A stretch of DNA of 64,000 nt from NCBI GenBank assembly GCA_004123355.1, contig SCHM01000001.1, forward strand, positions 11,356,193-11,420,192. The letters are read 5' to 3'. The translations under genes were made by a program, and so were the position numbers. Below, piece after piece: positions 21,072 through 54,980 of the stretch (within the stretch, counting starts at the first letter, position 1; every line of letters begins with the position of its first letter). The notes under the pieces are model-generated. The model was not told the origin of the DNA. It saw only the letters and a program-made list of their open reading frames with translations, and searched no databases. This DNA comes from Amphirosellinia nigrospora. Taxonomy: Eukaryota > Ascomycota > Sordariomycetes > Xylariales > Xylariaceae.

Positions 21072-24443
<3,372 letters not shown>

Positions 24444-24656
24444 TGTCACGTATTTGTAGATACGATCTAGCATAAGAAGTAAACTAGTATATTTTTTAAA
24501 AGGGCTTAAATAAAATATATTCAAATGATCTAAAGTAAAAGTTCTATATACTTAGGATAAATATATTAAAATCTTATATAATAAACGATTATTCGGATTA
24601 TAATTAAAGCGAGCTTTAGTTTTTAAAGCTTACTATAGACTTATTTATCCGTAATA
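24444..24656. repeat. Left LTR (213 bp)
   Basis: Begins TGTCACGTATTTG and ends CCGTAATA, which equals the right-end CCGTGACA after one G-to-A and one C-to-T change. The outer half is nearly unmutated and the inner half is strongly AT-converted. Shared landmarks with the right copy include ATACGATCTAGCATAA and TATACTTAGGATAAATATAT. Confidence 0.92.
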
Positions 24657-27600
24657 TACTTTTTAGTTTTAAAGTTATTTAAAGCTTTAAAGCTATAAAT
24701 TAACTATATAAAAAAAATATTAATAATATTTCTATTAATTTATTATAGCGTAAGCTTTAGTTATAAGTATTAGCGTAAATGCTTTAAATACTTTAAAAGC
24801 ATATATTTTATAATGCTTTGCTTTTTTAACTTGTTTTGCTAGCTATTAGGGCGCTAGCAAAAATTATAATTATGTTTATTTACTTATTTAGCAAATAATA
24901 AAGCTATAAGCTAATACTTGCGTAAAAAGCGCGTAGGTTTATATTATTTATTGTTTTTAAGCTTTTTTTATTTTTTTTTTCTTTTTTTTTAGCCCGCGAT
25001 TATTTTATTTTTATAAATAAAATAAAACTAACTTGCTTTTTAGTAATTATATTAATATATTTATATATTAGTATAAAAATAATTATAAAATTTTTTTTTA
25101 TAAATAAATTTTTTTCTTAAAAACGTAACGTTATTTTAGCGCTTAGGTTAATAGTTAAAAACTGCCGATCGTTATTTTTATAAACTAACCTTAAATAAAA
25201 CTAATATTATTATTATTATTATTATATTTATTGCTGCTAATGTTAACGCTAGCTTAAGCTCGCTTTTAAATAATTTATATAATTCTTGCTGCTTTGTTTA
25301 GCTACTAAAAAGCTATTAATTTATATTTAATATTGCTGTTATTATAAACGCTATTACTGCTATTATTTAGCGCGCTATTAGTACTAATAGTAGTAATTTA
25401 TTATTATTTTTTTCTTGCTAATAACGATCCCAACGAACTAGCGACGCCGCGCTGCGCGCGCGCCACCCGCCGCCGTTCCGATCGCGCCGGCCGTTATACT
25501 ATCCTGTGCGTAGCGTACCTTACCTCGGCCTTTGCGGGTAGCTCCTCGGCGCCTGTTATAACGTAGCGCGTAATATAAAATGCTATAAATATACCTCTGG
25601 GTATATTTATTATATTTTATAAGTTTTATATAAACTACTAAAAGCTTATTAAAATATATTAATTATAATATAATAAACTATATATTATATTATTAGCGGT
25701 ACGTTTAATAGTTATTTTCGAAATAAATAATAATAACGCTATTATAAATTTAAGCTTTATTAAATATTAATTTATTTTTATATTAATATAAACTATTAGT
25801 AAAAAAACGTCCGTAGCTTTTGCGCCGCTATTTAGGTTGTTTAAGCAATTTTTGCCGCTAAGTTTGCCGGCGCGTTTGCCTTTGCTGCCGCTCCTACTCT
25901 TGCTTCGCAAGCTTTCCCTACCCTAGCCTATAAGCTCCCCGGCTCTTAGTATTAACTAAAAATAGATCCGAACTATTATTTAAAGTTTAATAAATTTATT
26001 ATAGTTTAGTTTAAATAAACGTAAGCTTAACTAAAATATAGCTTTATAATTTTTAAAATTATATAGTTATTTTTTAAAGCTTTAGCTAAATAATAAAATA
26101 ACTTTTATACGTTAATTAGCTTATTTAATTATTATAAACCGAATAATATATATTTTATAAATTAAAATATATAAAAATGTTTAAACTATATTTGCGGTAA
26201 ATTTTTAATAAGTTTATTAGTTAATATTTAATTTATAGCTAAATATATAACTTTAAAAAACTTTTATAATATTTTTATTTAATTTATATATTTTATATAT
26301 TTATATAGCGTAGCTAAATATTAATTTGTTTATTTTTTTTATAATTAAGTAGATCGTTTAAATATTATTTAAATAAATTATTTATTTTTAATAAAACTTT
26401 AGCTATATATTTTTAAAAAGCTTTTTTAATATTATAGTTTTTATTTTATTAAGCTATAATATTAATTTTGGTTTTAATAATTAAAATAAATATTATATTT
26501 TGCTAAATAGCTTTTTAAACGATTGTTTTACTAAATAAAAAAATAATATACTTGTAAAATAATTTCTATTTTTTTATTATTGTTAAACAAAACGTTTTTG
26601 CTATAAAAATATTTAAGCGCTTTATTTATATTATTTATAAATAATACTTAAATTTTTATATAATATAAATATTTAATTATTTAATTAGCTATAGCTAAAT
26701 AATTTAAATTTAAATTAATAAAATATTTAAATAGTTAAGTAGCTATAAAAGCTATATTTAGCTAGATTATAATAATAATATATAAATAAACTTTATACGC
26801 TTTTAAAATATTTTAATTTAAATTTTAATAGTTTATTTTAAATATTTTTTAGTTTTTTAAATAATAAAAAATTACTAAAATTTAGCTATTATTATTTAAC
26901 CTGTAATATTATACGATTTTTTTAATATATTAATTATAAAATAGCATAAACGTTTTAGCTTTACGGTTTTTAATTTTTTATTTTTAAAAACTAGTATATA
27001 TTTTTTATTTTTTAAGTTTATATACTTTTTAATTTTATTAATTATTTTTTAGCTTTTTTTTTATGCTTTTTATAATATAGTATTAAAAAGTTATCTATAT
27101 AAAATATATATATATTTTACTTTTTTAAGTAAAATAAATAAAGCTTTTTTAATAATAAAATTAAACTAAAGCTTTTTAAAATATTTAAAAATTTATTATA
27201 TTATAGTAATAATAAGTCCTTTAAGCTATATAGCGTTTTTATAAGTAGCATTATATTTTTTTATTTAAAACTATTAAATAATTTATACGCTATAAGCGTT
27301 TTTTTTTTTTAAAAACGTTTAAAAACGCGCTAATAATATTAAACTATTTTATTTTTAAATCGAACTATATAACTATAGCTATTATAATCCTAAACGTTTT
27401 AGCTATAAATATAGTAGTATATATTAACTAAATATATTTTATACTAAAATCTCTTAAACTATTAAACGTATTTATATATGTTTAAATACTTTTTTTGTTA
27501 AATTTATATATAATACTTATTTTAAAAGTAATAAGTTATATTTAGTTTTATAGCGCGGTATAAGTTTTATTATTTTAAGCCGTTAAAAATTAGCGATTTT

Positions 27601-30600
27601 TTTAAAAGTATTATTTTTAAATCGATTTTTTAATAAATATTTAGCTAAATCTTTTTATATTTTTAAAATAGCTTAAAAAAATCGTTTTTATAGATTTTAA
27701 GCTGCTAAAGTATAGCTTTAAAACGTTTTGCTTTACTTTAGTACATTATTACTATAATTATTATATATAGTATTTTATACTCTCGGTTTTTTTTTATATT
27801 ATTTTTAGTTAATTAAGCATAAAAATTAATAAAAAATTAAACTAATTATAATTATTAAAAATAATAATTTTTTAATCTTTATAAATCTATTTAATAAAAA
27901 TAATAAAAATCGCGTATTTTTATTTTTACTCCTAACTTTATAATTAAAAGGCTTTTCTTTAATTTTTTAATTAAATCTTATTTTTTATTTAAAGATCTTA
28001 TTAGTCCTTAAGTTTAAAGCCGAATACTTGCTTACTACCTATATAGTTTAGTTAGGTTTTTTTATATATTTTCGGTTACTTCCGGTTTTACTAAATATAT
28101 TTTATAAAAAAATCGAAAATTATTGCTTATTAATTTAGTTATACCTAAAATTATTTCTATATTTATAAGATTACTTTTTAGCGTATTAGCTAATTTAAGC
28201 TATTTTTCCGCCCTAATAAGTTATTATTCTAAATTAAGTATTTATCGAAAAATTAAAAGTCCTAGCGTTTAATCTTTATAAACTTTTAAATATTCTTTAA
28301 TTTATTTTTTAAATTATTTAAGCGATTTTACTTTTAACTTATATTTTTAGTTAGCTTTTAAGCAATAAATTTATAATTATAAAATTATCTTTAGTTTCGC
28401 TAGAAATATTAGCGTTTTTTTTAAAATATATTAGTTATATTATTTTTTACACGTTAATTATATTTAGTAGATTTTTAATATAGGTTTTTTTATAATAATT
28501 TGCTATAATTTTTAGTTGATTTTAAAAGCTAATTTTCTTGCTTTTTATTATAGAAAATTTTCTTATTAAATATAACATTATATATAATAATTATTTTATT
28601 TAATTAAAAATTTATACTTAGTATAAGTTAAAAGTTATCCAACTTATTAAATATTTAATATAAATATATAAATTAACTTTATATATTTATTTATGCTTAT
28701 TTGCGAGCTTATTTTTTTTATTAAATATATTTTATAGCTATATATTTAAATTATGCTCCAATTTAACCATAGATTTATTATTTAGCTAATTATTATTTTT
28801 AGTATATATTACCGAAATAATATTAAAACTAATTAAAAAACATTTTAATAAAAAAATAAAAATTATAAGCTTTAGAAAAGCTTTTATTATATAGCTATAA
28901 AGCTTTATAAACTATTTTTAACTAAAGCTCTTTAAATAGTCCTGCTTTTTAAAGCATTTTTAAAGCTTTTAATATAATCTTTTAGCTTATTTTTTTTTTT
29001 ATTTACGAGCTTTTTTATATAGCTTAAAAATACTTCAATATTAATACTATAATTATTCTTTTAATATTAAAAATTAATAAAGCTTTTGCTAGCGATTACT
29101 ATAGTTTTTTTATTGTTATATATTTTATATATAAAAACTTATATTAATATATTATTTAGCGCTTAAACCGCATAATATAATAAATATTATTATTTTAGTT
29201 TTTTATACTAAAATAAAAATATAAATTATTTTGCTATATTTATTTTTAATCCTAAGTAGCTAGGATATTTTATTATATTTTTTAAAATAATCGAATAAAT
29301 TTTAATTAATTTTCTAAAATAGCCGCGCTATACGCCGTTTTAATAGTTTGCGCGAAATAACGCTTTTTACGTACGCCCTAGTATATATTTTATAATTTTT
29401 TTTTTATTCTTTTAATTTTAATACTTTTAGCTATATAAACTAAAGCTTTTAATAACTTTAGTTTTAAGTGCTTTAATTTTAAATATTATAACTTTTTAAT
29501 ATTTTTATAGGGCTTTATTAAAGCTTTTAAAATATGTATTAAAAAAGTTTTAAAATAATAATAATTATTTTAGCAGTATTATAATAATTTTTTTAAATAT
29601 ATTATTAATTATTAATAGTTTATTTAAATAAATAAAAATAAGGCTATATTTAAAAAAACTAAATTATACTTTTTAATAAAAATTTTATTATAATATTTTA
29701 TTAAATATTTTTAAAATAAAAAAATAGTTATATTTATAGTATTAAATTTTTATATTTTTAAATCGAGCTTTTAAAACTATATTTATATAGAACTTTTTTA
29801 TTAATGCTATGTTTTTAAGCGTTAAATTTTTTATATTGCTCCTTTTAGCGCTAAAAAATACGTTTTTAATAATTTTTTATTTTTACTAAAAATAAAAAAA
29901 AACGTAATATTTACGTTTATAAAATCTTTTTTTAAAAAAAGCATTAATAAACTTTATATTAAAAAATCCTTATTATTAATTAAATATATAGCGCTATAAT
30001 TATTTAATACTATACTTTTAAAAATATATAATAAATATACTTTAATATTATATAAATCTTTAAATTAATTAAAAAGTTTTTTATAAAAGTTTTATCGATT
30101 ATAATATAAGCTAAATTAAGCTTTAGCTATTTATTATTATTTAATCTTTTATAAATAAAGCGTTTATTTATATAGTTTTAAACTTTTTAGCTTTTTTTTT
30201 AATCTTAGCGCGTAGTTTTTTTAGCGCTTATAGCTTTATTTAGTTTTAATTTTAAAAATCTTATTAAATAAAAATATCCTAATTTTAAAATTTATAAAGC
30301 TTATAACTACTTTTTAAAAATGCCTATACTTTTATAAAATTTATTTATAAATATTATTAATATTTAAAATATAAAAATAAAAATACTTATTTAATTTATT
30401 TTTATTAGTAGATTTATTTTAGCTTTTTTATAAGTTTTTTAATTAATTATCCGATTTTTTTCTTAGCGTTATAAAAATCCTGCTGCTGCTATATTTATTA
30501 CGTATAATCTTTTAATAGATTAAAGTTTAAAAAACTTTATTAAACTGTTCTATAGTTATTATAGGTTTTTAAGCTATTCTTTTTTATAAGCTTTATAAGC

Positions 30601-31477
30601 TTTTAGCGTGCTTAATTAGAAACTATTTTTATTTTAATAGCTTTTAAAAAGTTTTCGTTATAAGTACTTTATAAACTTTAAATAAATTTAGTATTTATAT
30701 TTATAAATATACTTCGTACTATTTAGCATATATTCTTTTATTTAATTTTTTTAAAAATAGTTTATTTAAATGTTTTTTATAAATTTATTATATATAGAAC
30801 TAGTAAGCTAATTCTATAAATGCTAAAAATTTTTATAGCTTTTATAAAAGCTTATAAATTAATTGTTTTATATGCAATTAACTAAATAGTTATTAAGTTA
30901 AATATATTTAATAATATAGTTTTTTATATTTATATAAATAAAACGTTATATTTATTAGTTTAGCTAAACTATATAGCTAGAACTATAAAAAAGTTTTTAA
31001 GCTAATTTTATATTTATAAATAATTTTTATATTATTTATAAAAACTAGTAATTTCGGCCTAATAAATATTCTAGCTATAAAAAATATATTTAGCTAAGCT
31101 TTATAAACTATTTAATACTTTTTTTATTATTATTTATTAAGTTCGATTATTATAGCTTTTTTTATAAAAACTTTAAGCGTATATTTTAGCTAATAAATTA
31201 AATCCGGTTTATTTGGGTCGATTAGCTTTTATATTTTATAATCCTAAATAAAATTATAACTTAATAATCTACGTAAAATAGTTTATAAGCATTTAAAAAA
31301 ACGTATCTTTAGTAATAATTTTTTAGTTAATATTTTTAATTAGTTAGATAATATTTAAAATAATCGCGCTACGATTTAATAAAGTTTATTAAAATAAAAT
31401 AAAATTTTAAAAGTTTACTTTAGTAGCTTTTGCTTTAAAAAAATAAAGCACTAGCTTTAGCGAACCGGGCTTATAAT

Positions 31478-31691
31478 TATTATATATTTATAAATACGAT
31501 CTAGCATAAAAAATAAACTAATACACTTTTTAAAAAAGCTTAAATAAAATATATTTAAATAATCTAAAATAAAAATTCTATATACTTAGGATAAATATAT
31601 CAAAATCCTATATATATAAACGATCACTCGGACTATAGTTAGGGCGAGCCCCAGTCCCTAGGGCTCACCATAAACCCACTTATCCGTGACA
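31478..31691. repeat. Right LTR (214 bp)
   Basis: Starts TATTATATATTTATAAATAC. Over the first 23 bases it differs from the left LTR only by G-to-A and C-to-T changes. Its outer half (GGGCGAGCCCCAGTCCC region near 31645) keeps the original G/C content and ends in CGTGACA at 31691. Confidence 0.92.
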
Positions 31692-31738
31692 GTTGTTAGC
31701 TAACTTCAATAGATACCCCATGGAGTTGATCCTGAAGA

Positions 31739-34700
31739 ATGGCTACGAATGAGGTGCGAGTCACATTACCCTTTCCCTACTCCAGCGATCAGGATGGAAC
31801 TAAAGTGATGTAGGGAGCGGAAATCAATTAATCAGTTGCTATACGCAAATATACCCTCACCAGAAGTCATCCAGGCTGCAAAAAGCCAAGCTGAAATAGA
31901 TGCTTTCAATGCCAGCGAACAAGACCTCCTTGCATTCGCATTAGGTGCGCCCGCTCGTCAGGTTATGCTCCGCGCAGAAGAAATCGGCCCCAGGACTGGT
32001 TGGATAGACGGATACCTTAGCAGAGAACATGGGTTCTGCCCCCCAGACTACGAAGCAGCTGGAGCTTTGGCTAAAACGCCTGGACGTGTTTGGTCCGATC
32101 TGTGTGAACGAATGCCCGGCTGTGTCGCTCGCGGGCGTGTTCGGGAGTCTGTCGCAGCATTACCGCTAGTTGAGGGTATAGAGGAGAACATTCCGAACCA
32201 AGCGCTATGGCGGCGGTGGTGGCTTTGGGTATGCTGTGTCATATCTATCGCTTTCATGAGAAGTATGATGGGAACGATGGTGTCACGTCCAACCGCTCGA
32301 AAAAGGCGAGACTGAACTGTCCAATGGGTGACGACCTTGGGGAAGAATTGGTCGGCATTCCTCTAAGTCTTGCCCTGCCATACTATCAGATCTCGCGGCG
32401 CATGGGACGAGCCCTGCCACATCTCACTTTTGTTGACCAGTCATCCTACAACTTGAAGATAAAGGATGCTACGTCAACCTACCCATACGTCGCACGCTTT
32501 GACAATATAGAGCTTCGTTGGCCGATGTTTGGCGAACAGGCTGAGGTCGCGTTCCTTAAAGGAGTAGCAGACACGTCGGGTAATGATGTTCTTTTCAGCC
32601 GTTTATAAAGCGACTTGCTAATAAGCATTTAGCTTCTTTCCAACATGGGCCTGACGCGATAGCGCCTGCCAAGAACATGTCATGAATAGGAATGTCGAAG
32701 GTCTTCTGAGGGAGATGATCCGATTAAAAGAGATATTGGAGCGAATGCCTAATGCTTTCCATTCTATTTCGACAAATCCTAATGCCGGGGAGAACTACGT
32801 ATCAGCTCAAAAATGGGTTCGCTGGGCTAAGTTCTCAGCTCCCCTATCTACAAGATGCCCAGCTGTGAGTATTCTTGGAGCGATTTTCTTTTTGGTCTCG
32901 TAAATATCAGAGCGTAATATTTTCCTTTGGGACAAGGACTGTGGGAAAAGATTTTAACGCTACAAATTCCGCTCCAGACAGTGATAACTGACTCCGAGTG
33001 TTCTAGTCATCGGGCCTTCAATTTCCTCCATATTTAGTAATGGATGCCTTTCTAGGACGTAAGAAGTAAGTTTCTGGGAAGATTAGCTTTGGCCTCTCTT
33101 GAGTCAGGAATGTGCTCGAATAGCCATGTGATTAACCAAAAGTATCAGGTACTCTAGCTTTCTCGGCGCTGAAGGTGTACATCTTCGAGCATGGTTGCCA
33201 ACTAACCTTCGCGCATTTATTGCATCTATCGAGTATCATTACCGAATTCCAGAGTTCGTGGAACAGTCGGGTGACCCACGTCTCTTAGGTGTCTTGGATG
33301 GCATTGTTGAGGCATACACCGGTGAGCGAGGTTTTATGGGCGTTCACAGATATAAAGTGTTCGGAATACTCGAGGTTGCTGGGAAAACTGGGCGAACAGA
33401 GACAAATGGGGCGTCGGGGGCAAGCGATCAGACGAGACCGTGGGAAGAAACCCATCGCCAGTTTTCGGAAGCCATGAAGGAGCGTCTCGAGCCATTTCGT
33501 AAGTAGCCAGCTCACCAAGGGGTCTGTATTCATTACTAATAACGCTATAGGGGGCACGTTAAACGTAGAACCCCATCAAATGCGCGGGACTTTCGAAGAG
33601 TGTCGATACGTTTCACGAGTTCTTAACCGATCATTTGTCGACTCGGATGCGAGTCGAACGATTGCTCTAGTAACCCTCGATCTTCAAGAAACTGGCATAA
33701 CATTTATGCCCGGCGATCGCCTGGCAGTCATGCCCGTTAATAGCTGGGAAGAGTGCGCCAAAGTAGCCGCTGCGCTTGGGTTGGAAAACCTCGTTGATAG
33801 CCAGGTCAAGACCAAGGGGACTTGGTCCCGATTTGAGCGTCATTTAGCCTCTGTGAGAAGAACAAAGCTGCAAAACCTCACTGTTAAGGATATCCTTCGT
33901 CGTGGGCACTTGGCACCAATCACCCGAGAACTTGCTTTGAAGGTTCATAATTTGCTCTGGGCTTCGTCCAATACGGTTTTACAAGTCTTGGGAACTGACG
34001 AGTGGCCGGTACGCGGATCGCTAGGAGATCTACTCCAGAGTGCCTTGATGGATACTCCGCCTCAGGTTTGGGACAAGGCATTTGACCTGGACGACCTTTC
34101 GTGGCTAACCGATCTAATTTCCCTCGAAGTACCACGAACTTACTCAATTGCCAGCTACACGGAAGAACTCCTCCCGAGCACAGTCGACCTTGCAGTTTCT
34201 AGAGCCGAGTATAAGCTGTGTTCCACTTTTGCAGGCCAGGAAGATGTATCCCGTGCAGGCGTTTCTAGCGGATTCCTCAATCCACGGCCATCTATGGACG
34301 AGATAGCGGCTGATGATGAGGTATTAGTTGGTGTGTCGCGCCCAGCTGCATTTCAACTTCCCCTGGATACGATGGCTCCTTGTGCTTTTTTCGCTGGTGG
34401 TAGCGGTATCGCCCCATTCCGAAGCTTCTTACAATCTCGTCTTATAAAGGGTGGCCTGTCGGGAGGGAAAAACTACCTTTATCTCGGTGTTCAATCCCGA
34501 GAAAAGTTTTGCTTCGAAGAAGAGTTGCGCGAATATGTGAATGCTGGTTCATGGAGGTACATCTTGCCTTCTCACGGGATTCACGAGGTCTTGCCTATGA
34601 TCCCTATCTACGCGACCTTGTTGAGAGACCTACTCCTCCTCGCTATATTGATGTTCTTATCCAGGAACAAGGTGCTACCGTCTCTGAACTTGTCATGTCG

Positions 34701-35961
34701 AAGAAAAATGGAGGTCTCGGTGGATACCTCTATATATGCGGCTCCGTCTCGGTATTTGACTCCGTTCTGAATGGTGTTCGGAAAGCTATTTATACACATT
34801 GCACAGCAACCATGGAGAAGGTCGATCTCATCGTCAATAAAGCGTTCGCAGAACGCAGGTTTATGCTTGATGTTTTTATGACCCCCAAGCCTCTCCCTTG
34901 CAACATGCCGACTATTCCCATGTCGCAGCTTGCCATGCATACCGGTCACAGGCCTGGTTCTCGCATGTGGATTGGAGTCCACGGCTCTATTTACGATGTT
35001 ACGGATTTCTCTCCCATGCACCCCGGTGGAACGATGATTATTAAATCTAACGCAGGCGTAGACTGCACTGAATCATTCGACAACCTTGCTCACACGAATA
35101 ATCCGGAGGTCTCAAGTCTACTCACAAAGTATTTCGTAGGGCACCTCCCGGAGCCTGATTTTCGCGATGATAGCGATGAGAGAAACCTTTATTTGACCTG
35201 TGGGCGGCGTATCTACGCACGACGGTCGAGACATTGGTGGCACACCAGTTTGAGATGTATGAGATTATGGCGCATCATTGGATTCCTCATCATCGCATGA
35301 CCCCGCCGGGAACAACAATATCTGGCTGCGAGAGAGTCTGCCAAGCACCATTGCTGTGCGAACCTTCTATGGGTACCAAAGCCGTCTCTTACAAGGTGGA
35401 TTTGCGGCACTCTTCGGTCCCAAGCTACAGGAAATCGTCCTCAAGCTATCATTCAGCTTGGCAAATGCGAGCCAGCCTGGTGCCCAGACCCAGGTTCCCG
35501 ACATTCTAGGTGCGGTAGCGAGAGCGAAGACTAGTGCTGATGCTGTTACTTGTACGAGGGAGCTGGCTCTCGTCGGTCAATTGGTTTCTGATACGGATAG
35601 CTCTCTTCGCTTCCAAGACCGCGGTGTGTTTGCCTATGCATCGAAGAGCGTCGAACTGGACATCGAATTATTAGAAGGCCTCCGTCAAGAAGCCTGCGAC
35701 GGGATGGATGCCTTCGACAACATTGCTACAACATATTCCTCGCTCGATAGGACGGCAGACCCTGATCTCGCGACTAGCAAGCTTAACGCCCTATGCACGT
35801 TTCTTCTTCAGATCCTCGAACGAATGTCTCGGCGCCTCGGTATTTTCTACGCCCAATTAGCACAGCATTCAATATACCATCCCGAACTCGAGAGCAACCC
35901 GGCCCGGACAAGATGGATGTTTGTGCGTCGACTTATCCGTGATGCAGCTTTTTCGTCTTAA
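31739..35961 (+). CDS. Heme dioxygenase-like / CPR-like reductase / cytochrome b5 fusion protein
   Basis: Proposed exons are 31739-31753, 31836-32579, 32633-32864, 33007-33065, 33149-33498 and 33551-35961, about 1270 residues. Residues ~1-465 resemble the IDO/PrnB heme-dependent oxygenase superfamily: LWRAVVALGMLCHIYRF, IPLSLALPYYQISRRMGR, LTFVDQSSYN, and GFMGVHRYKVFGI with a candidate proximal His. Residues ~470-920 form a CPR/CysJ-type FAD and NADPH module: GDRLAVMPVN, PRTYSIAS (RxYS FAD motif), GGSGIAPFRSFLQSR, YLGVQSREKFCFEEEL, LAFSRD and GYLYICG. No FMN flavodoxin domain is visible. Residues ~920-1000 are cytochrome b5 (MWIGVHGSIYDVTDFSPMHP then GG, plus LAHTNNPEV for the second axial His). 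A helical region follows. Electrons could pass NADPH-FAD-b5-heme within one chain. One-base breaks lie near 32212, 32655, 34553, 35195 and 35270. The substrate is unknown. Confidence 0.8.
32865..33006 (+). repeat. Introner-like intron copy B (142 nt)
   Basis: Splits the heme domain of the fusion gene between GCT and TCA codons (CPA|SSGLQFPPY). 5' end GTGAGTATTCTTGGAG, 3' end GATAACTGACTCCGAG then TGTTCTAG. The other introns of this gene are 52-83 nt. Confidence 0.7.
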
Positions 35962-36904
35962 CCCATAACATGAGGCCCGATGTCCTTCAGAATGGGCAGT
36001 CATCTTCGTTCTACGTATCGCGTACTAATGTAAACCAGAACGTTGGGTTTGATAGAGTGATGTCACAGGTACAGGCTGACTTAGTGGCCAGTCAACAAAT
36101 GACGCCGTATAACACGCAGTCTCACTCTCCATTGAGCCTCAATGCGGTGCATCAGACGCGAGGTAGAAGCACCGGAGATGCTAGCGCCGTAGCAACTCGG
36201 GAGAATGCCAGTGCTCTGAGAGCAATAAGTAACTTTGTTGACACGAACAACAAGGCAATCAGAAGACTGAGCAAACTACCCGCGACAGCGATGAGTTTTG
36301 ATGAGTTGAAGCAGACATCACAGGCAATTTCCCAACTTGCGCTTACGTCGAATCAAAATCTCGAGAGTTTATCAACAATAGACAAGACTCTGAATAGTAG
36401 TATTCCCACGCCACCTCAGAGCCGGGGTTCTAGCCGAACACGTAACTACCCGAGACAAGGTTCCATTCATCACCCGTCCGCGGAGATGCTTCTCAGTAAA
36501 CTGCAACAGCAACGTCACCGTTCCAGTTCGAGACAAGGTTCGCGCTCTGTCTCGCCCGTCGGAAGCGTCTACTACCCGGTGGTGAGGGGAGGGCCAACAA
36601 CGCCACCCCAAGGTCATGTTTCATTGCATGGGCAGCCAAACCATGCACTTAATGCTATGATGGGTCAATTCAATTCACGCCTGCAGAGGAGACACACGGT
36701 GGGTCGTCTAAGAGCGCCATTGCATCTGCCAAGTCTATGACTGGCAGCTTGGGAGGTCGGATGAGATCTTTTTCGAGTGTTCATGACATCCCTACTCGAG
36801 CAGCGCGTGAGAAGGGCCACACGTCAGTTCCAAGCACAAATTCGCTGCGCGCTTTCAGACTGAAGGGACTGGCCGAGCGGGAGCACATTGTGCCAACATT
36901 TTAG
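35962..36904 (+). CDS. Low-complexity Ser/Gln/Arg-rich ORF, separate gene or tail of the fusion protein
   Basis: A frame from ATG 35970 encodes a polar, probably disordered protein with a short helical core (ENASALRAISNFVDTNNKAI, MSFDELKQTSQAISQLAL) and Ser/Arg stretches (QRHRSSSRQGSRSVSP). Near 36700 the frame shifts by one base in a G run and continues (GGSSKSAIASAKS) to TAG 36902-36904. If the T run at 35949-35953 were one base longer, the stop of the upstream fusion gene would vanish and this segment would be its C-terminal tail. No promoter-like gap separates the two. No family recognised. Confidence 0.45.
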
Positions 36905-37125
36905 AGCATTATTTTATTTCTTATTATCCTAGTATTTAATTTAAGACATTACTCGCTCATAGAAATAATTAAGTACCACTATGCATTTTTTTCGAGGTGA
37001 ATAGGCGCGTTGTTGCCTATCATGAATGCTCAACCCGCTTGTTAATCCCAATATGCGCCATCTTGATTTATCGATGAATTCATAGAGAGCATCGTCGCCG
37101 TCGTGAAAAGTCGTAAAAGCAAGCC

Positions 37126-38598
37126 TTACTGCTCGAACTCGCCAGCGTCGAGGATATCAGCCGCTCCGCCATTCATGGCCTCCCAAACAGCCGAGGGTCA
37201 AGCTCAAAGTCTCTCTCCTCCACAGTCGTGGCATTGTGCTGTGCTATTATCGTAGCCGTTTCTTGCCGAGCTAGTGCAACTGTTCGCAATCATGTATGAG
37301 CATTGATTCACATCGATTGTTTCCTGTGTCTACGTATCAAGTAGCGAATAGAAAACGGACTTACCATGCAAGAAGACGGCAGATCTCTTTCCAGAGAACA
37401 TGGCATGTGGGACGTTGGTGATATTGTCGGCGTTCGCATCACCAATTGCGTAGACACCGGCGATATTCGTCATCAAGCCCCTCGTAGGGTCAGCCGCGAG
37501 CCTGCCACCGTCGAGCCGCACGCCCATGTCGGCGCCGACGCTCGAGTGCTGCTTGTTGGGGAAGCTTGCGAAGAAGGCCGCTCGCTCCACGCTCGGGCCC
37601 TCGGTGAAGTCGACGCGGAACAGGTCGTGCTCGGGGAACGTCGGCGCCTCGGGTGCTCGTCGGCGCCGCCGTCCGCGAGGCGCACGAGGGCTGAGATGGT
37701 GCGGTTTTCCACCGTGATGTTGCGCGCCTCGAGGTATTGCTCCCAGCCGGGAAATTTTTGTCCGTCGTCGCTCGCAGCTCGGGGGTGTTTGTCCCGTTTA
37801 CGAAGGCGATGATGTTGTTGTTCAACGTCGAAATCTCCTGGAGAGACTGGCGGCCTCATCTAAGCCGCTGAAAATACCAAGGGCTGGTCAGCGTGCTCAT
37901 TTCCGTCGCACCACTTTTCAACAGTATCCATACATTAGCAGGTTTCATTTTCTTAAAAGGGATGTAACGAACTATTGAAGTATTAGAGAATTACTCACAG
38001 GGCACCAGAAGATTCCCTTTCCCCAGTTCTCTTGGATGCCAGGCGTGCTCGGTATAATATCACTGAGCCCCGTAGCCAATATAACACCCCGTGCACCAAC
38101 CGTCATCTCCTCGCCCGAAGGGAGCTTTGCACTGACGGTGAACGGTTGAGTTGTAGTGTTGCCTTCCGGAACATCAACCTTCGTCACCGTCCCGTTCATT
38201 AACGTGGCCGATTGGTAGTACGCAAGTTGCCCGCGAGCCTTCCATCGGAAATACGCCGGGGCCACACCGTCGGTACCGATGACATCGTGCATGTGCCGGG
38301 TCGGGTCATTGCGGTACACGCCAGAATCAATGAGCAACACGTTGCGACGCACTCGTGCTAAGCCGCTTACTAGAACAACGCGCCGAGGTCAGCGCTACCG
38401 ATTTCTAAACAGACCAAGAAACCATATATAGTATTTACCCGCGCTGAGCCCAGCCGGGCCACCACCGATTACGACAGCATCATATACCGTCGAGCCATAA
38501 TTAACGGCGTCCTTCTCGAGGCCGACTGATGCAGTGGGCAGAGCCGAAATTGAAGAGAGCAGGAGCTGTAGAGCTACGGCGGCCTTGATGAAGCCCAT
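37126..38598 (-). CDS. Secreted thioredoxin-reductase-like FAD oxidoreductase (GliT/HlmI type)
   Basis: A flavoprotein of the class-II pyridine nucleotide-disulfide oxidoreductase fold. A signal peptide (MGFIKAAVALQLLLSSISA) precedes YDAVVIGGGPAGLSA, the FAD-binding GxGxxG motif. Next come VRRNVLLIDSGVYRN, RGVILATGLSD, and IFWCP|WCDGNEHADQPLG, whose CxxC redox pair is split by the intron at about 37929-37998. Then come LNNNIIAFVNG, FRVDFTEGPSVERAAFFASF, and the C-terminal GVYAIGDANADNITNVPHA FAD motif. Related enzymes oxidise dithiols to disulfides during epidithio-metabolite synthesis or act on unknown substrates. Export is unusual for TrxR folds. The last exon runs FELDPRAVWEAMNGG to TAA 37126-37128. 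Breaks near 37176, 37645, 37755, 37845 and 37895 are mostly missing single G or C bases. Confidence 0.8.
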
Positions 38599-52691: not shown

Positions 52692-54980
52692 TCATATTCC
52701 AAATTTGTCCATGTGGAATTTTCGGACTTCAGAGTTCCCGCCCTTGCCAACAGTCAACCCCTTTGGATCTCCCTCGATCTTAAGGCCGGACAAGCTCGTT
52801 GCTCTAGATAGAGCAACATAAACTTGTCCTTCCTCCCAAGCCCTAGTCAGATCGACAATAACGCGGTCGAGTGTGAGACTTTGACTTTTGTGAATCGACA
52901 TAGCCCATGCCGCAGCTAAGGGGATTTGGGTTCTGCTCAGGCGACTGTAGGGTTCCTTATTCCCCACAGTGTGTATTGAACAGTCCGCAAAAATGGTCCG
53001 TACCTCGCCATTGTGGAACCTAACAACGGGCCAGAATTTCTTGCTGACATTTTGCCTTTCCATAAAAACCCGTATGTTCATCTCTCTTATCTCTGCGTAA
53101 TCGCCGTGGATACCATTTTCTGGCGAAGGGTCTTTCTTTGTAGGTACTTTCGGGAGGTTTTTTGGGTCAAAAGCCTCATATCCGCAGATCACGCCTTGAC
53201 TGCCGTTGCACAGTTTTCGGCCTAGGTCTAGATTGGTAAGGAGAACAACCAACATACCCCTCTTGAATTCAACAAGAGCTTCATAACGATGGTCCCTGAG
53301 CGATTCCAGTGATCCATCGTGCGAGCGCCTAGTGTGCCTCTCAAGATGTTGATGTTCGGGCTGCATGTAGAATTCGTCCATGCAGGGATAAGAATATTTC
53401 TCTGACACGAGTTTATCGAAGCGTATTCGGTTCTCCCTACGAACTTCCTCTCGTCTAGCATAGAGTTTTGTCGCGTTCCCGGTTCTACATGGGTGGTTCA
53501 TGAGTATGTCCGTATCTTCGCCGGTCAAAGGTTGTCCTATCCGACATTTTTGCAAGATCTTAATGAACGTCTCGTCATTCTGACGGTGGATTGTCCGAAG
53601 ATGGAAATTAACAAAATTGCATGCTCCCCAACTTTCACTCTTGAATGCCCATTTATCCTCGTCGTGAAAAATTCCATGTTTCTTGCACTGCGTAGCTCGC
53701 TGTCAGCGATCGCCGCCTTGGAGTTGGTCGAACAAGATACATATGTACTCAACTAGTATAGGGAGAGAAAATGACTACTGAAAGTGACTCACCGCATACG
53801 ACTCCTCCGACCGGTTAGCTTCTAGCTCATCCCGCAACGGAGGCAATACTCAAAGGGCTTCACAGGAGGCAGCTGATGAAAATCACCAGTGACAACAATC
53901 TGCGCGCCGCCAAAAGGTTCATACGAGCTACGAGCTGCTTGCATGACGGCGTTCAGTCGTTCGAAATGAAAATTCTCCACCACTAATACCCCAGGTCAGT
54001 AATCGCCACTTCGAAAGAGAGTACGTCCCACAACATGACTTTAGCTAAAACAAGAGCTTTTGTGTTCTCAAAATTGTCGAGACGAGCAGTAAGTCCTGGC
54101 GTGTATTACTTACTGCTGATCTCGTCAATGACTAGGACATCTGTGGACTTTAATCGTTTCCGGACATGTTTTCCATGAGCTCCCGCTGAAGCTTTTCCAG
54201 CGACAGCTTGAAGCTACTCAGATTCCAACCAGCGTACACAAATGTAGTAGAGCCGCCAACTCCCAAGGCCGAGATACCAGTGGGTGCAACGATGTCGACA
54301 CATAACCCTCTGTCACGCAAGCGTCTCGTGAATGCTTTTAAGACGGTGGATTTACCGCAACCCGCCGATCCGGTATAAAAGACATTTCTCCCGGACAAAA
54401 TGAGGTCAACCAATTCGGCTTGCTCCGGGCAGAGTGGGGGTTCTTTAACTGGTATGCGGACCCGAGACGGCTCTTCACTTTGGTCTATGTGTTGCGATTC
54501 TAGGCTAGCCGAAACCGGAAACGTATCGGGAGTGAGGATCGAAGGTTCGGTAGTAGGCATCCATGTTTGTTGACTAGGCGTCGGGCTCAAGTTCGTACCA
54601 GCATCTTCGGGGTCTCCATCGAACAGATACTCTATGCTGTCGCGTACAGTTTCGGCATCGGTACCCTCTACAGTCTGCCCTGGCCTCAGCGGGATGGCTG
54701 TCCCGGAAGATTCTACATTGAGGACGCTGTCTTGGTCGGAGGGGTGTTGTAACTGGCTCTGGGGTCGTGTCGCTCGCCGAACGGGGCTATCGGCCTCTTC
54801 GTCGTCGCTTAACAGACTGATCACCTCGGGTCCGGGTGGCGGGTTTGTATAGACACGGCGCCGCTTTGGTTGAGGTTCGTCATCTTCCGGTCCGTCGTTC
54901 GTCTGGGCTGCGAAAGCTTTGCTGTCAAGGAGCTGCGAGTCACTTGATTGCGCTTTTGCACTTTCATGATCAGGCAGCAA
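52692..54980 (-). CDS. Pif1-family DNA helicase
   Basis: An SF1B 5'-3' DNA helicase paralogue. The N-terminal ~160 residues are polar and disordered (PKRRRVYTNPPP, ISLLSDDEEADSP). The helicase core follows with CPEQAELVDLILSGRNVFYTG, Walker A GSAGCGKST, VDIVAPTGISALGVGGSTTF (motif Ia), VLVIDEIS (Walker B), IVVTGDFHQLPPV (motif III), NFVNFHLRTIHRQND, and LGRKLCNGSQGVICGYE. It ends with RTQIPLAAAWAMSIHKSQSL (motif V) and QVYVALSRATSLSGL (motif VI). Introns lie near 53688-53792 and 54000-54120. One-base breaks near 54175 and 53808 fall in A and G runs. The Pif1 signature is complete, so an active enzyme is plausible. The first exon may begin upstream of 54980. Many fungi carry several such paralogues, some linked to mobile DNA. 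Confidence 0.85.

Follow-up and report, generated by a model that had tools for sequence, protein, structure and literature searches.

We analysed a window of 64,000 nucleotides from the genome of the fungus Amphirosellinia nigrospora (contig SCHM01000001.1, positions 11,356,193 to 11,420,192 of the forward strand). The window carries a fusion gene in which a heme domain of the indoleamine 2,3-dioxygenase (IDO) family, whose namesake oxidises L-tryptophan to N-formylkynurenine, is followed by a reductase half with flavin adenine dinucleotide (FAD) and NADPH domains and by a cytochrome b5 domain. The initial annotation had described heme, FAD/NADPH and b5 motifs in this order, and all of them are present on the plus strand. 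The interval that it had given to the gene (31739..35961) is too short at both ends. A tblastn search with relatives placed exon 1 at 24,284-24,412 and the end of the stop codon at 36,904, so that 31,739 and 35,961 are both internal. The ATG at 31,739 was rejected as the gene start, as exon 1 lies upstream. Exon 1 was located by tblastn with the first 60 residues of 12 relatives. Two relatives, P0002 (from Xylaria scruposa) and P0005, were searched in the same way against 31,001-38,000, and residues 44-1645 of P0002 map to 31,713-36,901. The locus is organised as follows.

24,284-36,904, plus strand: fusion gene, delimited by tblastn with relatives
24284..24412, plus strand: exon 1, Cys-Pro-rich leader (M1 to D43 of the relatives); tblastn, best E 5.1e-25
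24413..31712, plus strand: intron 1, 7,300 bp, with AG immediately 5' of the exon 2 I44 codon
24444..31691, plus strand: long terminal repeat (LTR) retrotransposon of 7,248 bp, decayed, of repeat-induced point mutation (RIP) type, inside intron 1 and separating exon 1 from exon 2
31713..31753, plus strand: exon 2, a tblastn match followed by a GT..AG intron
31814..32579, plus strand: exon 3, where the IDO-family heme domain starts, with a frame change near 32.21 kb
32633..32864, plus strand: exon 4, continuing the heme domain, with a frame change near 32.66 kb
33007..33065, plus strand: exon 5, heme domain, with the Asp of MDAFLG (P0002 D404), which pairs with an IDO1 Asp
33149..33498, plus strand: exon 6, heme domain, carrying the His of GVHRYK that is the candidate proximal ligand (P0002 H477) and the conserved H422
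33551..36904, plus strand: exon 7, FAD, NADPH and cytochrome b5 domains, then the C-terminal region and a low-complexity tail
33580..34880 (approximate limits), plus strand: FAD/NADPH half, diflavin-type reductase, with RTYS, GGSGIAPFRSF, AFSRD, YICG and RRFMLDVF
34923..35147, plus strand: cytochrome b5 domain, with HPGG and a second His (LAHTNN); PF00173, 59.0 bits
35183..35960, plus strand: C-terminal region, no fold assigned, partly conserved in 113 relatives

The five other introns measure 52-142 bp and are of the GT..AG type in every case. Intron 1 has an intact 3' end, with a branch-like site and AG, and its start, as read in the window, has no GT directly after exon 1. Frame changes were located by tblastn of P0002 and P0005 together with the frame-1 reading, and those of exon 7 lie near 34.55, 35.18, 35.27, 35.95 and 36.70 kb. 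The gene is not one open frame in the assembly, since seven frame changes leave no room for an intron. Within its own genome (48.1 Mb, 11 contigs), the heme piece matched itself alone and the reductase piece matched itself and three weak sequences (22-26 bits), so the fusion gene looks single-copy.

We then examined the domain content of the gene and its relatives. On the window frames, Pfam matches were obtained for FAD_binding_1 (40.8 bits; cut-off 32.3), NAD_binding_1 (32.7 bits; cut-off 22) and Cyt-b5 (59.0 bits; cut-off 23.7), the b5 domain scoring 61.7 bits in a search of the whole genome. The two IDO pieces of the window scored 14.6 and 16.1 bits, under the Pfam cut-off of 26, and the heme-domain frame 33,195-33,503 had no Pfam match. 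For the relatives, the first search was run with residues 614-965 of the single-frame reading (X at stops), which form one open frame, and 370 proteins at E <= 0.001 were found among the 8,000 candidates scored; the best 120 were examined. The best relative among the matches listed was P0002 (1,645 amino acids (aa), 90% identity over 92% of the query piece). Xylaria proteins stand closest to the gene among these matches, which suggests a Xylaria-like host. Its Pfam matches follow the order IDO (42.0 bits, residues 126-371), FAD_binding_1 (32.1 bits, residues 547-621; cut-off 32.3), NAD_binding_1 (30.7 bits) and Cyt-b5 (58.6 bits, residues 987-1060), and a C-terminal region without assigned fold comes last.

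Ten relatives (P0002, P0038, P0095, P0108, P0258, P0261, P0277, P0257, P0247 and P0242) were scanned with Pfam; they were chosen among proteins already carrying the IDO family and do not constitute a survey. All ten exceeded the cut-off for IDO (PF01231), with 36-66 bits vs. 26. Six of them, from other groups, scored 42.9-66.4 bits for IDO, 28.9-43.9 for FAD, 29.6-42.3 for NAD and 41.2-63.0 for b5. The b5 match is missing in P0108 (1,028 aa), while the other nine share the same four-domain order. The Pfam check suggested by the initial annotation thus returned the IDO, FAD, NAD and b5 families in the relatives, FAD_binding_1 being under its cut-off in four of the ten. Its description of the heme domain as "IDO/PrnB" stands for the first name only: PrnB (PF08933) kinship was rejected, with no match at E <= 0.1 in the window frames and the ten relatives. 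At the same threshold, the ten relatives contain neither an FMN (flavin mononucleotide) flavodoxin domain, in agreement with the initial annotation, nor a nitric oxide synthase (NOS) oxygenase family.

Conservation was assessed in a set of 113 full-length relatives. It comprises 88 of the 94 proteins added by a second search, run with a piece of the divergent P0142 (six were dropped as outside 1,390-1,830 aa), and 25 picked from the 120 first-search rows. The heme-FAD junction shows no majority-gap column in these 113 aligned relatives, and residues at the junction are invariant in a set of 61 relatives. Because the junction is conserved, one chain is far likelier than an accident of gene models. 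All four Pfam families were found in 89 of the best 120 of 370 proteins in the first search and in 105 of the best 120 of 340 in the second. A split into two or three separate genes was therefore rejected, given the conserved junction and the four families in single predicted proteins. The idea of one gene with an IDO-family heme domain, an FAD/NADPH half and cytochrome b5 is upheld by the Pfam order in the relatives and by this junction.

The reductase motifs RxYS, GxGxAPFR, SRD and CG are present along with the FAD and NADPH domains. Ser and Arg of FSRD are kept in 112 of the 113 relatives (one gap), and all 113 retain the Cys of YICG as well as Asp and Phe in MLDVF. The first axial His of cytochrome b5 (HPGG) is kept in 109 (four gaps) and the second in 112 (one gap); both are found in the window. 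Against the PDB, the reductase piece of P0002 best matched the neuronal NOS reductase (1f20, E 6.8e-16), followed by a sulfite reductase (1ddg, E 6.5e-14), and bifunctional P450-reductase proteins were also among the matches. The alignment to NOS extends into RRFMLDVF. NCBIfam returned only sub-threshold models, with sulfite reductase at the top, which may explain the source names of the relatives. The C-terminal region had a single PDB match, to a 145-residue lysozyme (E 0.0021), in which no stretch passed alone and which is not convincing.

The leader shows a Cys-Pro-rich pattern (CP..CP..GPRGC.F) conserved from basidiomycetes to ascomycetes. Within the first 80 residues, at least two Cys-Pro motifs occur in 75 and at least one in 92 of the 113 relatives. 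The leader could bind heme or a metal.

To place the heme domain, we compared it with the PDB. A single heme-domain sequence found IDO1 at E 7.4e-5, and a diverse three-sequence profile had just two matches below 0.1, human IDO1 (E 4.1e-12) and IDO2 (E 1.7e-4). The alignment with IDO1 covers about 240 residues and ends at ...SLRSY in IDO1 and ...GERGF in the fusion. The Asp of MDAFLG, which pairs with the Asp of FDVLLG in IDO1, is kept in 113 of 113 relatives, as is H422. The His of GxHRYK (P0002 H477) is kept in 112 of 113 and lies just beyond the aligned stretch. Heme-domain matches of 257-820 aa numbered at least 105; some are of stand-alone length (P0133, 481 aa), which are not distinguishable from exon pieces. 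Among bacteria, 590 pattern matches were obtained and none was confirmed as a heme-domain relative, in a weak search limited to two short patterns.

The distribution of the fusion was then investigated across fungi. All organism names noted among the best 120 of either search are fungal. Hosts with a looked-up lineage include Gaertneriomyces and Cladochytrium (Chytridiomycota), Volvariella (Basidiomycota), Polytolypa (Eurotiomycetes), Ascobolus (Pezizomycetes), Cadophora (Leotiomycetes) and Periconia (Dothideomycetes). We take Xylaria, Colletotrichum and Fusarium to be Sordariomycetes, and the remaining placements are likewise our assumption. The four-domain combination thus spans chytrids, basidiomycetes and five or more classes of ascomycetes. 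IDO was absent from 29 of the best 120 rows of the first search, mostly shorter proteins, but P0028 has 1,666 aa. In P0134 (Didymella keratinophila), IDO is joined directly to b5 and the reductase is absent, through either a true loss or a gene-model error. The source names of the relatives ("sulfite reductase", "nitric oxide synthase", "nitrate reductase") are misleading, and they mask a family that is widespread in fungi.

A FastTree phylogeny of 37 of the 113 relatives (1,400 columns, midpoint rooting only) groups chytrids and basidiomycetes (support 0.992) apart from several ascomycete clades. Leptodontidium, Amniculicola lignicola and Lindgomyces ingoldianus carry two copies apiece, placed in separate clades. 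An old fusion with later duplication would fit this picture, and transfer of the fusion gene between fungal lineages may also have contributed. More specifically, an IDO-type oxygenase could have been fused to an NADPH reductase and b5 before the major fungal phyla split, with a substrate other than tryptophan; we advance this only tentatively, as less probable than the opposite.

The way the parts follow one another, the missing FMN and the intact motifs point to a relay in which NADPH would reduce FAD, FAD would reduce the heme of cytochrome b5, and b5 would reduce the IDO-type heme, which would bind O2 and oxidise a substrate. The replacement of FMN by b5 as one-electron carrier, proposed in the initial annotation, is plausible; no FMN flavodoxin family was found in the ten scanned relatives. 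On these sequence grounds, we consider the product to be probably an IDO-family heme oxygenase that reduces itself within one chain, with a probability of roughly 0.62. The built-in chain would most likely keep the IDO-type heme ferrous (reductive activation). A preprint (PMC13142367) and an article (PMC4032907) state that IDO1 must be reduced from its ferric form, that human IDO1 is supported in vitro by P450 reductase, whether or not b5 is present, and that b5 is reported as a major IDO1 reductant in human cells. Reductive activation is the most economical reading because this support is already reported: P450 reductase and b5 are described as reducing IDO1 in trans, and they would play the same role here in cis. 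No evidence was found for the nitrogen-oxygenating reaction that had also been envisaged.

Several observations weigh against this interpretation. Of the ten scanned relatives, four (P0002, P0258, P0277 and P0257) score just under the cut-off for FAD_binding_1, and the Pfam match to IDO spans no more than about positions 7-228 of the 412 in the model. The heme profile alignment ends just before the proximal heme His of IDO1, which we take to be H346, and before the GxHRYK of the fusion, three residues out of register. H477 is thus only a candidate proximal ligand, because it lies beyond the aligned stretch and out of register. R231 of IDO1, presumably the Arg in contact with the carboxylate of the substrate, lies in a stretch that is inserted with respect to the fusion, and R377 of the fusion (104 of 113 relatives) sits elsewhere in the alignment, not opposite R231. 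Tryptophan binding in the manner of IDO1 therefore appears doubtful for the fusion. The heme profile gave no significant match to the IDO proteins of the same genome. Three further IDO-family genes are found there (C1:12.79 Mb, C4:4.137 Mb and C1:11.547 Mb), whose best matches reach 438, 338 and 117 bits vs. 36-66 for the scanned relatives of the fusion, and they could serve tryptophan breakdown. Finally, the preprint calls the in vivo P450 reductase/b5 route for IDO1 unclear (PMC13142367).

Independently of the three further IDO-family genes just mentioned, 26 cytochrome b5 matches were found in the genome, and none of them adjoins any of these genes.

Whatever the enzyme does, the copy in the window might be a dead gene, damaged by the retrotransposon and the frame breaks; this does not compete with the readings of the enzyme, and we regard it as possible, though the less probable state of the locus. 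The element has the termini TGTCACG..CGTGACA, LTRs of about 213 bp and the flanks ATTGT and GTTGT, alike at 4 of 5 positions. Direct repeats of 130 nt with 88% identity lie 7,034 bp apart, and transitions account for 40 of the 41 substitutions between the LTRs. Over its core (25,001-31,000, per kb), TA/AT is 1.28-1.44, (CA+TG)/(AC+GT) is 0.14-0.44 and GC content is 0.11-0.29. We take these dinucleotide ratios and the low GC content to be the mark of RIP. A death of the gene would be consistent with the 7,300-bp intron 1 that starts without GT, with the seven frame changes and with the appearance of the retrotransposon flank, which seems compatible with RIP. The exons argue against such a death: over the heme and reductase parts, starting at residue 192, their pieces remain 90-100% identical to P0002, and in the tblastn alignments of P0002 and P0005 the sole stop falls within an intron, with none in frame in the exons.

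The frame changes were compared with those of other genes of the same assembly. In the fusion gene, seven were counted over the 4,802 coding bases that make up exons 2-7 (1/686). Acetyl-CoA carboxylase is an essential gene; its 726-position central domain is spread over five successive matches that overlap slightly and differ in frame, with four frame changes in 2,212 bp (about 1/550 bp). Genes of the RPB2 family are similarly split into three segments on contig C8 and six on C6, whereas the one on C1 has one frame and a single stop. Many of the 120 matches to the ketoacyl-synthase are partial, introns and errors not being told apart there. Because acetyl-CoA carboxylase is broken at a similar density in the same assembly, the breaks of the fusion gene are most likely sequencing or assembly errors, and they were rejected as proof of a pseudogene. 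The insertion in intron 1 is a possible lesion of the window copy, which, with this intron taken up by a decayed retrotransposon, may be poorly expressed or may have lost its N-terminal leader.

Two further observations concern these parts of the assembly. A GC-rich patch of the retrotransposon (about 25402-25560, about 150-200 nt) has four diverged genomic relatives (69-75%). In the assembly as a whole, frame breaks occur in conserved genes, and gene calls need care.

Among the rival readings of the enzyme, a true monooxygenase survives best. It would work like a P450, with two electrons per turnover and insertion of one O atom into an aromatic or nitrogen substrate. Monooxygenases exist in the wider superfamily of heme-dependent aromatic oxygenases, the IDO1 carboxylate Arg is unpaired in the heme profile alignment, and a dedicated NADPH chain would seem costly if it merely repaired autoxidised heme. 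Nevertheless, the sequence kinship is to IDO1 and IDO2, and no feature was found that separates mono- from dioxygenation, so we hold this reading to be unlikely.

A nitric oxide dioxygenase of the flavohemoglobin kind, or another gas-handling enzyme, with the IDO fold in the place of the globin, is more improbable still. Flavohemoglobin combines heme with an FAD/NAD reductase in one chain, and conservation from chytrids to ascomycetes would fit a housekeeping role in stress. On the other side, such an enzyme would need neither b5 nor the C-terminal region, and the "nitric oxide synthase" names of relatives are explicable because the reductase half matches the neuronal NOS reductase, the oxygenase family of NOS being absent from the scanned relatives as noted above. 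Least probable of all is a heme- or redox-sensing regulator with a pseudo-enzymatic IDO domain, its signal relayed by the Cys-Pro leader and the C-terminal region: the leader motifs counted above would suit it, but the tested redox motifs, NADPH contacts included, are almost fully conserved.

We also compared the self-reducing IDO-type oxygenase proposed here with known systems. Among the IDO enzymes (IDO1 and IDO2; PF01231), its heme domain aligns with IDO1 over about 240 residues and has an Asp in common with it, and a conserved His, the candidate ligand, follows just past this stretch; it differs in carrying its own reductase and b5, and the Arg taken to bind the substrate is unpaired. Its FAD/NADPH half, with the signature motifs, resembles the diflavin reductases (NADPH-P450 reductase, the reductase half of NOS, CysJ), but the FMN flavodoxin family is lacking in the ten scanned relatives and cytochrome b5 follows. 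Self-sufficient P450s of the P450BM3 type and NOS combine a heme oxygenase and an NADPH reductase in one chain. Their heme is Cys-ligated and they have FMN, where the fusion has a His as candidate ligand in an IDO-type heme domain and carries b5. Fungal fusions of cytochrome b5 with b5 reductase, i.e. b5 and a flavin reductase in one chain, are known (PMC4557397); in these, b5 is N-terminal to the b5 reductase, and the available part of the article mentions no oxygenase heme domain.

No description of the fusion was found in the titles and abstract starts of the open-access papers listed, most subscription journals being outside this scope. The parts are known, and their combination and breadth appear undescribed. 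The electron source of IDO enzymes in living cells is still disputed, according to PMC13142367, and the fusion protein, as a possible self-sufficient oxygenase, would make the question testable in one purified chain. If an ancient fusion acting on a substrate other than tryptophan were confirmed, it would represent the contested reduction route of IDO1 in a natural single chain, and the family would count as a new class of heme oxygenases that are self-sufficient.

Finally, we looked at the neighbouring genes. The analysis covered 30 of the 41 listed open frames and a few shorter ones, and no substrate clue emerged around the gene. Matches were obtained for NAP, F-box, a calcium-channel-type membrane protein, a GDSL lipase, an AMP-binding enzyme, an aldo/keto reductase, myo-inositol-1-phosphate synthase, a weak Pyr_redox_2 and pieces of a PIF1-like helicase. 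The Pyr_redox_2 matches, under the cut-off in two frames, lie at 37330-38352 on the minus strand and point to a possible FAD/NAD(P) oxidoreductase placed tail-to-tail with the fusion gene. The helicase pieces occupy two open frames at 52692-54980 on the minus strand and belong to either a cellular Pif1 or the helicase of a mobile element.

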